Below are positions 12,440-32,461 of a stretch of 64,000 nucleotides of DNA, one piece after another (position 1 is the stretch's first letter; the number at the start of each line of letters is the position of its first letter). The position numbers were made by a program, and so were the translations under genes. The stretch is from a virus: IMG/VR virus record IMGVR_UViG_3300033997_000092, positions 124,001 to 188,000 of that record, one strand, 5' to 3'. The notes below the pieces were generated by a model. The model was given only the letters and a program-made list of their open reading frames with translations, was not told the DNA's origin and searched no databases.

Positions 12440-13399
12440 ATGGCTAAAGACAAAGTGAAAGAAAAGAAGAAAGCTAAGGCTGTTGACAAGAATGATGTCA
12501 AGTCAGGCAAGAAGCCAGGCAGGAGAGAACAGGCTGCCAGCTCCAAGAAGCTGATTAAGTCAAAAGGTCCTGAGTTTAAAAAGAACAACAAGACCGCCTC
12601 ACGCACTACTGATTTTACGGTAGATGATTTCAAAGAAGCTCCGTATAACCCGCGATATATCAGCCCTGTAGAATTGCAGCGCTTAGGTAAATCGATGACA
12701 ACATACGGTGACTTGAGCGGTATTGTTTTCAACAGGCACTCGGGTGTGACTATTTCTGGTCACCAGCGCTTGAAGCAAGTACGCTTGTATGAACACGGCA
12801 CTGTACTGAAAGATGTAAAAGATGACGGTTACGGTACTGTTGCTGAAGGTTACGTATGGTACAAAGGTCCTAACGGCAAAGTTCGCATTCCATTACGTGT
12901 AGTTGATTGGTCAGATAAGAAAGCTGAATTCGCAGCCAACATCGCAGCAAACGCACACGGTGGTTCGTTCGATAACAAACTGCTGGCTAACTTGGTTGAA
13001 GCAATTGAACCAGGTGACGGCGAGTTCGATATTGATTTACTTGGTATCGATCCTATTACAATCAAAACACTTCCTTATGAAGACAAGATCGGCGATGCTA
13101 ATAAAGAAACGTCTCCGTCAGGTTCCGGTCCATCGTTTGCAGAGTTCAACTCAGAAAGCTTCGACGGCGAGTTGGTACATGAATGTCCTCGTTGTAGTAT
13201 GCGCTTCAACGACAACGGTGAAGAAGTTGTCCGTAAAGGTTACTCTGAGCCTGAAGACGATGACGAAGAAGATGAAAAGCCTTCAAAGAAAAAGTCAAAG
13301 TCAAAGAAGGACAAAGACAAGCCTTTGAAGAAAGGCGCAAAAGAGCTTGCTGAGTTTTCTACTCCGGCTAAGAAAAAGCCCAAGAAGAAATCAAAATAA
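12440..13399 (+). CDS. ParB-like N-terminal domain protein of the modification cassette
   Basis: The 319-residue protein has a Lys-rich N-terminus (about 60 residues), then a ParB/sulfiredoxin-like domain: PYNPRYISPVELQRLGKSM, IVFNRHSGVTISGHQRLKQV and RIPLRVVDWSDKKAEFAANI. SGHQRL replaces the usual DGxHR box. This domain commonly precedes DNA methyltransferases in phages and may target or nick DNA. A CPRC pair near residue 247 may bind zinc. The C-terminus is a KSKSKKDKDK-type low-complexity tail. The methyltransferase starts 12 bp downstream, so the two are probably one unit. Enzymatic activity is not shown. Confidence 0.75.
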   Translation: MAKDKVKEKKKAKAVDKNDVKSGKKPGRREQAASSKKLIKSKGPEFKKNNKTASRTTDFTVDDFKEAPYNPRYISPVELQRLGKSMTTYGDLSGIVFNRHSGVTISGHQRLKQVRLYEHGTVLKDVKDDGYGTVAEGYVWYKGPNGKVRIPLRVVDWSDKKAEFAANIAANAHGGSFDNKLLANLVEAIEPGDGEFDIDLLGIDPITIKTLPYEDKIGDANKETSPSGSGPSFAEFNSESFDGELVHECPRCSMRFNDNGEEVVRKGYSEPEDDDEEDEKPSKKKSKSKKDKDKPLKKGAKELAEFSTPAKKKPKKKSK

Positions 13400-13411
13400 A
13401 AGGAACGATTC

Positions 13412-14479
13412 ATGGCCAAAACAAAAAAGGCTGAAAAAGAATCGGCAGCAATGCGTATCAGTAGGCTGGTACCATTCGCTGTCCCTTCTATTAAGAAAAT
13501 CAACAAACATCCTAAACGCTATAAGTCCATAAGCTTGTTCGCTGGCTGTGGTGGCAGTAGTACGGGAATGAAGATGGCTGGATTTGATGTAATCTATGCC
13601 AATGAGTTTGTTGATATTGCCGCCGATACTTATGCTGCCAATGCTACATCACATACAAAAGTTGATCGCACAGACATTCGTAAAATCAAGTTCACTTCCC
13701 TTATGCGTGAACTTGGACTTAAAGAAGGCGAACTTGATCATATGGACGGTTCTCCTCCTTGCTCTAGTTTTAGTACAGCAGGTAAGCGTGAAGAAGATTG
13801 GGGTAAAGAGAAAGCCTACTCCGAAGATAAAGTCCAACGTACGGATGACCTGTTCCATGAATTCTGCCGCGCGCTACGTGCGTTTAAGCCAAAGACTTTT
13901 GATGCAGAGAATGTTTCTGGTCTTGTGAAGGGCATGGCTAAAGGTTACTTCCGTGAGATTGCTAAGCACCTTGAAGATTGTGGTTATGTTGTTGCTGCAC
14001 AGCTTCTTGATGCTAGTTGGCTCGGTGTTCCGCAGGCCCGTCAACGTATTGTGTTTGTTGGTGTCCGCAAAGACCTTGCAAAGAAGTACGGCTTCAAGCC
14101 TGTGTTTCCTAAACCTCTGTATCGTCAGGTTACTGTTCGTGAGTGTTTGCCTGACATAGCACGTATCAAAACGAAAGTACAGAGCGTTATCAAGTACGTT
14201 GATAGTAACAGGCCTAACAGTACGATTACAGCCAGTGATAGTTTAACTAGCCCGACAGCTAAATTCAGTGACGGTGGCTACATTGAAACATTTGACGGCG
14301 AACAACGCAAGTACAACATAGATGAACTGCGCGTCATCTGTGGGTTCCCTAGCGATTTCAAATTGTTAGGAACCTATGAACAACAATTTGAACGTCTTGG
14401 TCGTAGTCATGTGCCTGTGCAGATGTATTGGGTATGTAAAACTATTGCCGATGAAATTCTCGATAAGATTAAGGATTAG
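13412..14479 (+). CDS. C5-cytosine DNA methyltransferase homologue with altered motif X
   Basis: The 355-residue protein carries the ordered motifs of C5-cytosine methyltransferases: motif I SLFAGCGGSSTG (41-52), motif IV GSPPCSSFSTAG with catalytic C117, motif VI ENV (166-168), motif VIII QARQR (208-212) and LRVICGFPSDF near 306-316. Motif X, normally GNxVP, reads GRSHVPV (330-336). The cofactor-contacting Asn is missing: Arg331 follows the Gly, or Ser332 takes its place if VPV is aligned. Engineered C5-methyltransferases with Lys or Arg at this Asn are reported (from memory) to accept carboxy-SAM. Because a CmoA homologue follows 2 bp later, the enzyme may transfer a carboxymethyl group to cytosine. 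Target sequence unknown. Confidence 0.9.
   Translation: MAKTKKAEKESAAMRISRLVPFAVPSIKKINKHPKRYKSISLFAGCGGSSTGMKMAGFDVIYANEFVDIAADTYAANATSHTKVDRTDIRKIKFTSLMRELGLKEGELDHMDGSPPCSSFSTAGKREEDWGKEKAYSEDKVQRTDDLFHEFCRALRAFKPKTFDAENVSGLVKGMAKGYFREIAKHLEDCGYVVAAQLLDASWLGVPQARQRIVFVGVRKDLAKKYGFKPVFPKPLYRQVTVRECLPDIARIKTKVQSVIKYVDSNRPNSTITASDSLTSPTAKFSDGGYIETFDGEQRKYNIDELRVICGFPSDFKLLGTYEQQFERLGRSHVPVQMYWVCKTIADEILDKIKD
14399..14419 (+). other. Variant motif X of the C5-methyltransferase
   Basis: These codons encode GRSHVPV, residues 330-336. The canonical Asn of GNxVP is absent, with Arg or Ser in its place depending on where one aligns the extra residue. The change is at the SAM carboxypropyl/sulfonium side of the pocket, which is why it matters for cofactor choice. 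Confidence 0.8.
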
Positions 14480-14481
14480 TT

Positions 14482-15258
14482 ATGTCTGAGAGTGGAGATA
14501 ACCACGTAGCCGATGATGGTGCTAAATGGTCCTTTGACGAAAAGGTAACTGCTTCGTTTGACGCTATGCTAGCCGACAGCATTCCAAGCTACGAAACTAT
14601 GCGTAACCTGTGTTTCGAGCTTGGTAAAAACTTTGTCCACAAAGGCAGCCTTATTGTTGACTTGGGCGCCAGTCGCGGTCAGAGTATACAGCGCTTTGTA
14701 GATCATTTCGATTCTATTTACGCGCCGACTGCCTTTGATGTTACTGGTCTTTCATCTGATGGTGTACAGCACGTACTCTTTGAGATTAGTCCTCCTATGA
14801 TGGACGTACTCAAAGATAAATTTTCATTGGCACCAAATATAATGTTGTGTCCAAACGACATTACTGTCCGTGGAAACATCAGTGCTGTGTGCAAGCCAAA
14901 AGCAGCCAGTTTGATTATGAGTATTCTGACAATTCAGTTTACTCCGATTGAGTACCGATTGCAGATCATCGATGAAATCTATCAGAGCTTAGAGCCTGGC
15001 GGTGCTTTTATTTTTGTTGAGAAAGTAATAGGCAATTCAGCACACATTGACCGACTCATGGTAAAAGAATACCTGGCACTAAAAGCCGATCACGGTTACA
15101 CTCAAGAGCAAATCAACAAGAAACGCAAAGCTCTTGAAGGTGTTCTCGTTCCTGTAACCGCCAAGTTTAACGAAGAAATGTTGCGTGATAGTGGATTCCG
15201 TTCTGTTGACTGTTTCTATCGTCACTTAAACTTTGCTGGCTGGATAGCTATCAAATGA
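14482..15258 (+). CDS. CmoA-like carboxy-S-adenosylmethionine synthase
   Basis: The 258-residue protein resembles E. coli CmoA along its whole length: WSFDEKVTASFDAMLADSIPSYE (16-38), motif I IVDLGASRG (58-66), FEISPPMM (100-107), LTIQFTPIEYRLQIIDEIYQ then LEPGGAFIFVEK (149-181), HGYTQEQINKKRKALEGV (204-221) and a final RHLNFAGWIAIK. CmoA converts SAM and prephenate to carboxy-SAM. The KKR at 213-215 aligns with the E. coli segment holding the Arg that contacts the added carboxylate. In bacteria CmoA serves tRNA cmo5U through CmoB; no CmoB is present here. Position between a C5-methyltransferase and an amide-forming enzyme points to DNA instead. Confidence 0.87.
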   Translation: MSESGDNHVADDGAKWSFDEKVTASFDAMLADSIPSYETMRNLCFELGKNFVHKGSLIVDLGASRGQSIQRFVDHFDSIYAPTAFDVTGLSSDGVQHVLFEISPPMMDVLKDKFSLAPNIMLCPNDITVRGNISAVCKPKAASLIMSILTIQFTPIEYRLQIIDEIYQSLEPGGAFIFVEKVIGNSAHIDRLMVKEYLALKADHGYTQEQINKKRKALEGVLVPVTAKFNEEMLRDSGFRSVDCFYRHLNFAGWIAIK

Positions 15259-16094
15259 AGAAAAAGAAACTTCCAAAAGTAAGGAAACTATTGGGAGAAG
15301 CATTGCAGCCACATCGTAAAAAGCGTTGTGGCGTTTTGCTTTCTGCTGGTGTGGATTCTCACAGTGTTTTACATGCCTGTTTGGATGTAGGCATACGACC
15401 ACTCGTAATAAGCTTTACTCGTCGTGATCACGAAAGCCGTGACTTCAAATCGGCACGTGAAGCTGCAACTCGTTTAGGATTGGATTTCTTTCCTGTCTAT
15501 CTTAAATCAGATCCAGAAGTTCTTGTACGTTATTTGCGCCATGCTGCAAAGCACGGTGTTCGTGGTAAAGCCGCTTTCGAGTGTCTATATCCGATGATGG
15601 CAACTGCCCGTAAGTTAAAACGTAAAGGCATAAAGATCGATTGTTTATTTTCCGGTTACGGTGCCGACGCCTTCTTTGCTTTGAGTAAGAAAGGATGTAT
15701 GCACTACCGTGACAAGATGGCTGAATACGCACTGGAAGCACATGCCCGATATGTCCGTAAAGGATCCCAGCTTGATATTCTCAAACGGTATTTCAAAGAT
15801 GTTGCCTGTGTCAAGTACAGTAGTCCGTGGTGTGCCGAATCTATCCGTGACAGCTTTACAAGACACACGTACTCACATGACGACTTAAACAAGCCAAAAC
15901 AAAAATGGCCTGTACGCAGAGACTTTGACAAAGAGTTCTCTGAGTCAAAAATTTTCAACCACACAAACTACCAGTTGGGTGATAGTGGTATTAGTGCAAT
16001 GTTCCTGCAGTTGCTCGATCACCGCATAAATAGCAAAAACTATAAATCAACTACTGGTATATACAACGACATTGTTCGGAGTCTCGATAAATGA
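15255..16094 (+). CDS. Asparagine-synthetase-like ATP-dependent amide synthetase (no glutaminase domain)
   Basis: The 279-residue protein has the PP-loop LLSAGVDSHSVL (S30-S35 as SxGxDS) and FSGYGADAFF (132-141), matching the SGxGADExF motif of AsnB-type enzymes. These adenylate a carboxylate and let an amine displace AMP. The N-terminal Ntn glutaminase domain of AsnB is absent, so the nitrogen donor would be free ammonia, another amine or a partner protein. A Lys-rich N-terminus could contact DNA. It overlaps the CmoA-like gene by ATGA and the next gene by ATGA. I infer that its substrate is the carboxymethyl group on cytosine. Another PP-loop reaction remains possible. Confidence 0.8.
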   Translation: MKKKKLPKVRKLLGEALQPHRKKRCGVLLSAGVDSHSVLHACLDVGIRPLVISFTRRDHESRDFKSAREAATRLGLDFFPVYLKSDPEVLVRYLRHAAKHGVRGKAAFECLYPMMATARKLKRKGIKIDCLFSGYGADAFFALSKKGCMHYRDKMAEYALEAHARYVRKGSQLDILKRYFKDVACVKYSSPWCAESIRDSFTRHTYSHDDLNKPKQKWPVRRDFDKEFSESKIFNHTNYQLGDSGISAMFLQLLDHRINSKNYKSTTGIYNDIVRSLDK

Positions 16095-16570
16095 ATCACC
16101 TGCATCACCTGTATAATCAAGTACGCAAAGCAATACTTGCCGAAGCTACAATGGATAAAGAAGATCGACTTCTCCATAGTTGGCAATTTTTAGTTCAACT
16201 GAAAGGCGTCAACTACGTTGTTGGTAAGACAGGCTACAATACTATGTTTTACCGTATAGGTGATAAGGGCGATACAGTTACTGGCTACCCAGATGATATA
16301 CTCAAAGTGATATTGTCTTGGACCAAGGAAAAATATACAGGCTACATTATTTATGATGGCACTGAAATACGCCGTAAGTCAAAAAGCATCGAAAGCTTAC
16401 TCGAACGTACTGCTAAAAAGGACTACGTCATATTTGGTGTTCGGCCAGATAATACATGGTCCGCTTTGTATGAGGCCAACAACAGCCTAAAAGGTTACCG
16501 TTGGGTAAAAGTTAAAGCACCTGCATCTGACGTTAAAGTTAAAAAGACAAAGTCCAAAACAAAGCACTAA
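16091..16570 (+). CDS. Hypothetical protein, 159 aa, coupled to the modification cassette
   Basis: It starts in the ATGA overlap with the amide synthetase. It is an alpha/beta protein with many aromatic residues (YNTMFYRIG, YTGYIIYDGTEI) and a basic tail (KVKVKKTKSKTKH region). No known family. The coupling makes a role in the same modification pathway possible, for example as a binding subunit or amine-donor partner, but nothing in the sequence shows this. Confidence 0.65.
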   Translation: MNHLHHLYNQVRKAILAEATMDKEDRLLHSWQFLVQLKGVNYVVGKTGYNTMFYRIGDKGDTVTGYPDDILKVILSWTKEKYTGYIIYDGTEIRRKSKSIESLLERTAKKDYVIFGVRPDNTWSALYEANNSLKGYRWVKVKAPASDVKVKKTKSKTKH

Positions 16571-19258: not shown

Positions 19259-20476
<1,218 letters not shown>

Positions 20477-30753: not shown

Positions 30754-31419
30754 ATGTCAAAGTTTAATGTTTTGGAAACGGAATACACTGATATAAAATC
30801 AAAAGAGACTTTTAAATGTGCGATGCTTTGTAACAACTCACGCATAAAGTTTGGCTTCCTTATGACTCAGGGACTTGTAGCTATGGTACCTGGCTATAAG
30901 CCATTAGTGTTTATGCTTATGAATGATCACCACAAAGCGGCTGCCTCAGGTACGATTGTTATAAAATCGTCTGGTATTTCTGATGTTGACTGCCGTACAG
31001 TAGTAAACGCTTTTGCTTCTGCGTTGGATGACAAACTAACCAACGTGTTGATTGCTGTTCCTACGTATGATATTTCTGACATTGAATCGGTTGAACCCAA
31101 CTATGCAACTATACTGACCTCGTACACTTTCGCGTATTTAGATTCTTCAAACTACTACGAAGGTACGTTTGGCTTGAAGACTTCGGTTTGTACAAGTTCT
31201 TGTTCGGTGGATGTCCTTGTATATGATTTGGAGTACACTAAAGAAACTCTATCTACTGGCGAAATGGTTGAACAAAATTACCCTATGCCAATTGATGAAT
31301 TGTGTGGGACATTCAAACTTTCTTTAGATATGTTTGTGTTTGATAAGACATGCAGCGATGTTGCATCGGACGGTGCATCCAACGTGGTATTAGTTGACTC
31401 TTCCAGTACACTACAGTAG
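30754..31419 (+). CDS. Hypothetical protein, 221 aa
   Basis: TGAGGTACACT precedes the ATG at 30754. Beta-rich protein with many Ser, Thr and Cys (SVCTSSCSVDVLVYD). Resembles small surface or virion proteins in composition only. It ends 7 bp before the UV endonuclease start. Confidence 0.6.
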   Translation: MSKFNVLETEYTDIKSKETFKCAMLCNNSRIKFGFLMTQGLVAMVPGYKPLVFMLMNDHHKAAASGTIVIKSSGISDVDCRTVVNAFASALDDKLTNVLIAVPTYDISDIESVEPNYATILTSYTFAYLDSSNYYEGTFGLKTSVCTSSCSVDVLVYDLEYTKETLSTGEMVEQNYPMPIDELCGTFKLSLDMFVFDKTCSDVASDGASNVVLVDSSSTLQ

Positions 31420-31426
31420 GTACAGT

Positions 31427-32461
31427 ATGCGTATAGGTTTTGCATGTAAGTATGTCCATCCTGACCAAAGTCTTCCTAAGAAGCACCTGAAAGAAATCGA
31501 AGGCCGTTACAACATGCGAAGCACTACGGCCACACGCTGCCGTAACGATCCTGACTGGCAGGATTTGTTATGGGAGATTGCTGAGCATAACGCACAGTGT
31601 ATTATTAACCTCGTAGAATACGTTAGCTCTTTGCCAAAAATGGCACACATGGTCCGTATAAGCAGTGATGTTCTTCCACTGTACACTCATGTTGAGTTTC
31701 AACATTTCTACAAACGCAAAGATGTCCGCACTATGTTAGCTAAATGCCTGGCTCCTGCAGGTCAGTTAGCCCGTGACAAGGATATCCGACTTAGCTTTCA
31801 TCCAGGTCAGTTCTGTGTGTTAGCTTCTGATAGACCAGATGTAGTTGAGAACTCTATCCTTGAGTTTGAATACCATACAGACGTTGCCAAGTACATGGGT
31901 TACTGCAAATCGTTTCAGGATTTTAAATGCAATGTTCATCTGTCGGGTAAGGGCGGTGTAGAACAATTCCGTAAGACGTTTAAGAAGTTGAGTCCTGAGG
32001 CACGTAATATCCTTACGATAGAGAACGACGAGTATAGTGCAGGCCTTGATTATGTATTGTTTGTGTCTGACATTGTTCCAATCGTTTTAGATATTCACCA
32101 CAATTGGATAAACACAGGCAACTACATACGACCGTCAGACCCCCGCGTTAGGCAGGTTTTAGATAGTTGGCAAGGCAAACGTCCTACCATGCACTATTCG
32201 TATAGCCGTGAAGAAGTTCTGCTGAGTGCTGGCCATAAGTGTAAATACACTAACCCAAACATGGATAAACTTTTAAAGCGTGGCGCTGTATCAGGTAAGT
32301 TAAGGGCCCACAGCGACTTTTATCCAAATGTATCTGCCAATCGTTGGGCACTAAGTTTTTTGCCTGAGTTTGATATTATGTGTGAGAGCAAGATGAAAAA
32401 CTTGGCTTCACTGGAACTAATTGAATTTTACAGGAGCATACATGCAAGCAATGCTACTTAG
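31427..32461 (+). CDS. UV-damage endonuclease (UvsE/UVDE family)
   Basis: The 344-residue protein has the TIM-barrel signatures of UV-damage endonucleases: MRIGFACKY start, HMVRISSDVLPLYTH, SFHPGQFCVL, NVHLSGKGG, LTIENDE and VLDIHHNW. The His, Glu and Asp residues in these strands bind the metals. The enzyme nicks 5' of UV photoproducts and other lesions and begins repair without photolyase. It may also mend damage inflicted by host nucleases. Its length is typical (about 300-350 aa). Start ATG at 31427 rather than upstream in-frame starts because the upstream gene ends there. Confidence 0.9.
   Translation: MRIGFACKYVHPDQSLPKKHLKEIEGRYNMRSTTATRCRNDPDWQDLLWEIAEHNAQCIINLVEYVSSLPKMAHMVRISSDVLPLYTHVEFQHFYKRKDVRTMLAKCLAPAGQLARDKDIRLSFHPGQFCVLASDRPDVVENSILEFEYHTDVAKYMGYCKSFQDFKCNVHLSGKGGVEQFRKTFKKLSPEARNILTIENDEYSAGLDYVLFVSDIVPIVLDIHHNWINTGNYIRPSDPRVRQVLDSWQGKRPTMHYSYSREEVLLSAGHKCKYTNPNMDKLLKRGAVSGKLRAHSDFYPNVSANRWALSFLPEFDIMCESKMKNLASLELIEFYRSIHASNAT

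Follow-up and report, generated by a model that had tools for sequence, protein, structure and literature searches.

The closest described system is that of Synechococcus phage S-B43, a disguise of the phage DNA in which a trio of CmoA, CmoX and CmoY was characterised (Yang et al., Nat Commun, December 2025, PMC12783734). In this phage, CmoA makes carboxy-SAM (Cx-SAM) and CmoX makes 5-carboxymethylcytosine (5cxmC) in DNA at GC motifs. CmoY, a homologue of AsnB without a glutaminase that is encoded adjacent to CmoA and CmoX, ligates glycine to 5cxmC with ATP. The glycyl product 5gcxmC was present in the virion DNA and free 5cxmC was absent (PMC12783734).

The window analysed here is a stretch of 64,000 nucleotides covering positions 124,001-188,000 of a 261,032-bp virus record (IMGVR_UViG_3300033997_000092) of a jumbo phage. 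On its plus strand, genes for a ParB-like protein, a CmoX homologue and a CmoA homologue form a short-spaced run upstream of a CmoY-type gene. The ParB-like gene (12440..13399; phrog_620, 5e-29) is a recurrent neighbour of CmoX, and the one upstream of CmoX in Pseudomonas phage PaBG shares 50% identity with it; a ParBc association was also reported in the S-B43 study (PMC12783734). The next gene (13412..14479, +) encodes a putative cytosine-C5 carboxymethyltransferase and matched PF00145 at 6.7e-49. In the alignment to S-B43 CmoX, its SPPC motif was found at residues 114-117, and its R331 corresponded to R350 of the S-B43 enzyme and to Asn304 of M.HhaI. This Cx-SAM arginine was present in 53 of the 54 CmoX-type rows, the window included, in which the Cys and Arg positions could both be scored. 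Among the scorable methylases beside a CmoY, it is missing from one alone, that of Staphylococcus phage vB-SscS-F1 (L009, 5789-6796), which has VGGV and a GSPC motif; this enzyme may use plain SAM, may have arrived at another solution, or may be misaligned at its end. The GC and CG dinucleotide ratios in the window were 1.13 and 0.96, respectively, which indicates no obvious avoidance and is uninformative on the specificity of CmoX.

The gene of the CmoA homologue, a putative carboxy-SAM synthase (14482..15258, +), starts after a gap of 2 nt. Its match to TIGR00740 (2.9e-35) fell short of the curated cut-off, and the comparison with E. coli CmoA in the PDB (4gek) gave 4e-23. Counted on the PDB alignment, R215 of the window protein corresponds to R199 of E. 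coli CmoA, which forms a salt bridge to the cofactor carboxylate and is a marker of the family (PMC3663124). Bacterial CmoA works in tRNA cmo5U synthesis (PMC12783734), and the window trio might likewise act on tRNA or on a small molecule instead of DNA. This is highly improbable, since the enzyme that accepts the carboxymethyl group is a C5 DNA methylase whose S-B43 homologue modifies DNA, and a match to CmoB was not seen among the genes examined.

The CmoY-type gene (15255..16094, +) begins with ATG and encodes a protein of 279 aa, the putative ATP-dependent amide ligase. The tetranucleotide ATGA at 15255-15258 is common to the CmoA stop and the CmoY start, and a second ATGA at 16091-16094 is common to the CmoY stop and the start of the gene for a 159-aa protein (p159; 16091..16570, +; phrog_23597, 2.6e-31). 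The first-pass annotation had described the gene as translationally coupled to both neighbours, and the overlap on each side agrees with this. Residues 9-150 matched Pfam PF00733 (Asn_synthase, E 8e-11), with no GATase_6/7 or other glutamine-amidotransferase family among the Pfam matches. The score against TIGR01536 (asparagine synthetase B) was 37.6 bits and did not reach the curated cut-off of 267.1. The AF2 model, built from an alignment of 32 sequences, had a pLDDT of 96.2 and a pTM of 0.92. From residues 1-3 to 279 it superposed solely on the C-terminal synthetase domain of AsnB-like structures, namely beta-lactam synthetase (1mc1 216-488, Z 23.0), human ASNS (6gq3 222-526, Z 22.7), carbapenam synthetase (Z 21.6) and E. 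coli AsnB (1ct9 203-506, Z 20.0). The N-terminal Ntn glutaminase domain of the TIGR01536 type is thus absent by both Pfam and the model, which covers AsnB 203-506 alone, and the loss of this half that had been proposed from the sequence was borne out. A single-sequence phmmer search of the PDB gave bromodomain matches, which were rejected as spurious; the profile search returned AsnB and beta-lactam synthetase instead. Against the proven enzyme of S-B43 (SpCmoY, A0A514ABJ0), the identity was 31% over 90% (E 4e-16), indicating whole-length homology.

Residue assignments in CmoY rest on hhalign and HMMER alignments, and conservation was counted in 38 non-redundant glutaminase-free CmoYs, comprising 27 window-type and 11 S-B43-type sequences. 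The PP-loop and the SGYGADAFF motif were both found as previously annotated. In the PP-loop SAGVDS (residues 30-35; 15342..15359), S30 was kept in 27/27 and 11/11 sequences of the two types and D34, which aligned with the Mg-binding Asp of AsnB in hhalign, in 26/27 and 11/11. D138 of SGYGADAFF (residues 133-141; 15651..15677) aligned with the second Mg-binding Asp. Between these motifs, K105-AAF-E109 (15567..15581) provides a Lys and a Glu that are invariant in all 38 proteins. Both also occur in the glutaminase-fused protein of Streptomyces phage TurkishDelight; the pair is not found in AsnB, which has R325 at the position of E109. Q172 (15768..15770) aligned with AsnB Asp385 (gene numbering) by both methods. 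Judged from the human sequence, this position would adjoin Val-401 of ASNS, which is listed as a tunnel residue (PMC11615228). K105 and E109 may read the common acyl substrate, 5cxmC, and the clade-variable columns the amine.

The neighbourhoods of CmoY relatives were compared on stretches that reached at most some 5-6 kb to either side. Scanning viral contigs yielded 67 CmoY loci; among the 80 loci of CmoY relatives in all, CmoA was present on 68 and a CmoX-type methylase on 56. The CmoX-CmoA-CmoY arrangement is not due to chance. Across 50,697 phage records, CmoY relatives were found in 58 and CmoA relatives in 82. Membership of PF00733 would also fit an AsnB-like gene of ordinary metabolism whose place beside CmoA is a coincidence. 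This is the least probable of the explanations, as Asp385 and Arg325 of AsnB are not kept and the linkage to CmoA and CmoX is conserved across diverse phages. In Synechococcus phage RN05-S (L089, 4962-6801), CmoA is followed directly by CmoX without CmoY; this phage shares its Synechococcus host with S-B43 and lies outside the 58 CmoY records, and it thereby offers a natural no-ligase control. In Erwinia jumbo phages (e.g., MW366843.1 near 31387-32106), CmoA and a CmoX-like methylase are some 18 kb apart; the methylase aligns with window CmoX in separate blocks, as would be expected had a long insertion split it (phrog_36001, 715 positions). Elsewhere in the window, 19259-20476 encodes a 405-aa protein whose C-terminal half consists of long Asp runs alternating with Lys/Ser-rich stretches, with no Pfam match.

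Our main reading, to which we give a probability of roughly 0.78, is that 15255-16094 encodes a CmoY homologue that amidates 5cxmC in phage DNA within a CmoX-CmoA-CmoY pathway. CmoA would convert SAM and prephenate into carboxy-SAM, with which CmoX would carboxymethylate cytosine at C5 in phage DNA. CmoY would bind ATP-Mg at the PP-loop and activate 5cxmC in DNA by adenylating the carboxylate of its carboxymethyl group; a small free amine would then displace AMP to give an amide-linked hypermodified cytosine. We infer that the reaction steps of S-B43 take place in the window phage and that they pass through an adenylate intermediate. The synthetase-only architecture argues for this assignment, as do the conserved residues of the ATP site, the operon that joins CmoY to CmoX and CmoA, the recurrence of the trio in diverse phages and the diagnostic Cx-SAM arginines. 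Against it stand the identity of 31% to the proven enzyme, a position outside the S-B43 clade and the differences at residues 172, 243, 265 and 268. The earlier proposal, in which a carboxymethyl group placed on DNA by the CmoA route is amidated at the expense of ATP, matches the S-B43 experiments (PMC12783734), and the window has every one of the genes and diagnostic residues. The idea was right in outline, and the S-B43 results had already established it for a relative.

AsnB-type enzymes are able to use free ammonia too. A CmoY taking free ammonia would yield a plain carboxamide, 5-carbamoylmethylcytosine, as is thought for the glutaminase-fused phage homologues, and the AsnB-like fold of CmoY is compatible with this. 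A glutaminase-fused AsnB occurs in the same gene set of phage TurkishDelight, and a cluster with such a protein (A0A7T0Q3R0), of the same architecture as TurkishDelight gp124, was also reported (PMC12783734). However, Glu364 of human ASNS, which sits beside the ammonia tunnel (PMC11615228), corresponds to Glu349 of AsnB (gene numbering) and is replaced by Y135 in window CmoY. This Glu was kept in E. coli AsnB, human ASNS and the TurkishDelight protein, but in 0 of the 38 glutaminase-free CmoYs. In addition, neither GATase_7 nor class-I GATase was found in the 261-kb phage record, which may be incomplete, so that the absence is not final. With the tunnel Glu lost in 38/38 and a glutaminase absent from the record, a host-derived organic amine is favoured over glutamine-derived ammonia, and the free-ammonia product is unlikely. 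The first-pass annotation had left ammonia and a larger amine side by side; the larger organic amine was favoured and glutamine-derived ammonia was not. The most probable amine is an organic metabolite of the host, for which glycine or another amino acid would be the leading candidate.

Glycine has been demonstrated as donor for the S-B43 clade only (PMC12783734). In a maximum-likelihood tree, SpCmoY fell into an 11-member clade with support of 100/100 and a stem of 0.9 changes per column, and window CmoY lay outside it. Four columns best separated the two groups. At position 172, the window-type sequences have Q (27/27) and those of the S-B43 type G (11/11); at position 243, D (27/27) stands against a gap (11/11); at position 265, S or A (26/27) against R (11/11); and at position 268, G (23/27) against D (10/11). 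The window protein has Q172, S265 and G268 and lacks the G172, R265 and D268 signature of the S-B43 clade. It is possible, at somewhat less than even odds, that the window-type CmoYs (27 of the 38, including the window protein, that of PaBG and those of several Erwinia, Yersinia and Staphylococcus phages) form a separate specificity class that joins a non-glycine amine to 5cxmC and makes one or more undescribed DNA bases. The position outside the glycine-type clade does not by itself exclude glycine for window CmoY.

A phage-encoded supply of the amine was rejected, as neither an alanine racemase (PF01168), a DUF1611 protein or a 2OG oxygenase (PF13640) nor a second PF00733 gene was found in the record. 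In some other jumbo phages, a DUF1611 protein is encoded between CmoA and CmoY (L012 4018-4950 and its neighbours, L008 3899-4951, L010 3893-4966 and L051 4821-5897), and it co-occurs with both types of CmoY. In Erwinia phage pEa_SNUABM_23 (L012), an alanine-racemase-family protein is also located between the two genes. These neighbours hint at a D-amino acid or an otherwise processed amino acid as donor for the DNA amide. A 2OG-Fe(II) oxygenase gene follows CmoY directly in Erwinia phage Y3 and Salmonella phage Sen-NF and lies nearby in a further contig (L006 6047-6685, L007 5745-6392 and L043 7000-7671), where further oxidation of the amide base is possible.

The coupled p159 had been put forward as a candidate partner of CmoY, and it might supply the amine as a trans-acting glutaminase or as an amine-charged carrier. 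The ATGA overlap and the fact that the GenBank phage records with p159 all hold CmoY too would fit such a role. However, the 53 phage records with p159 homologues are all large Erwinia, Dickeya, Yersinia or Pseudomonas (PaBG) phages and represent one jumbo-phage lineage, and shared ancestry accounts for the association as well as function does. The position of the gene also varies: it follows CmoY directly in the window and in contigs L014 and L051, separates CmoA from CmoY in PaBG-like loci, and in Erwinia phages is located further downstream, about 0.5-2 kb from CmoY. Beside the CmoY genes of S-B43, Staphylococcus phage F1 and Sen-NF, p159 was absent. An N-terminal Cys is lacking in p159, and the protein shows neither a match to a functional family nor a glutaminase fold; its AF2 model reached a pTM of 0.58, and Foldseek gave no match at E<=0.001. 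Since purified S-B43 CmoY ligates glycine with ATP (PMC12783734), p159 is not needed for the chemistry of that enzyme. As a lineage gene that is missing from more distant CmoY loci, p159 has very little chance of being the donor; we rejected it as a glutaminase or donor, and the proposed partnership was not upheld.

On the preferred reading of a CmoY that joins an organic amine to 5cxmC, the DNA hypermodification pathway described in 2025 gains a jumbo phage of 261 kb and reaches into another CmoY subfamily. If the amine is not glycine, the locus would make new functionalised cytosines with a compact set of genes; such bases could protect against restriction and be used to label DNA by amide coupling. 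Since cultured phages (PaBG and several Erwinia phages) carry window-type CmoY, the base chemistry is readable by LC-MS without cloning.

Compared with E. coli AsnB, human ASNS and beta-lactam synthetase, window CmoY has the synthetase fold, the PP-loop and the Mg-binding Asp residues in common but lacks the glutaminase or Ntn-like half, and Arg325, Asp385 and Glu349 of AsnB are replaced by E109, Q172 and Y135. The locus of TurkishDelight has the order ParB-CmoX-AsnB-CmoA, and its gp124 shares the K...E motif; unlike window CmoY, gp124 has Cys2, a GATase_6/7 domain and the Glu of GEGSDE, and is a presumed ammonia user. Closer in layout are PaBG (PaBG_00180) and the L014 and L051 jumbo-phage contigs, which carry ParB-CmoX-CmoA-CmoY plus p159 and the window-type signature residues. 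The CmoY identity was 33-35% to PaBG and 34-46% across this set; the gap between CmoA and CmoY is occupied by p159 in PaBG and by the DUF1611 gene in L051, unlike in the window. In S-B43, as in the window, CmoY stands alone as an AsnB synthetase domain (about 271-279 aa) and is encoded adjacent to CmoA and to a CmoX with SPPC and the Cx-SAM Arg, and K105, E109, N212, K217 and H236 are common to both enzymes. They differ in clade, in gene order (X-A-Y in the window, A-Y-X in S-B43) and at Q172/G, D243/gap, S265/R and G268/D (window/S-B43). The characterisation of the S-B43 trio (PMC12783734) means that our interpretation is no longer new and its surprise limited; the window trio with its ParB-like gene is very probably a member of this system, known since 2025, in a jumbo phage.
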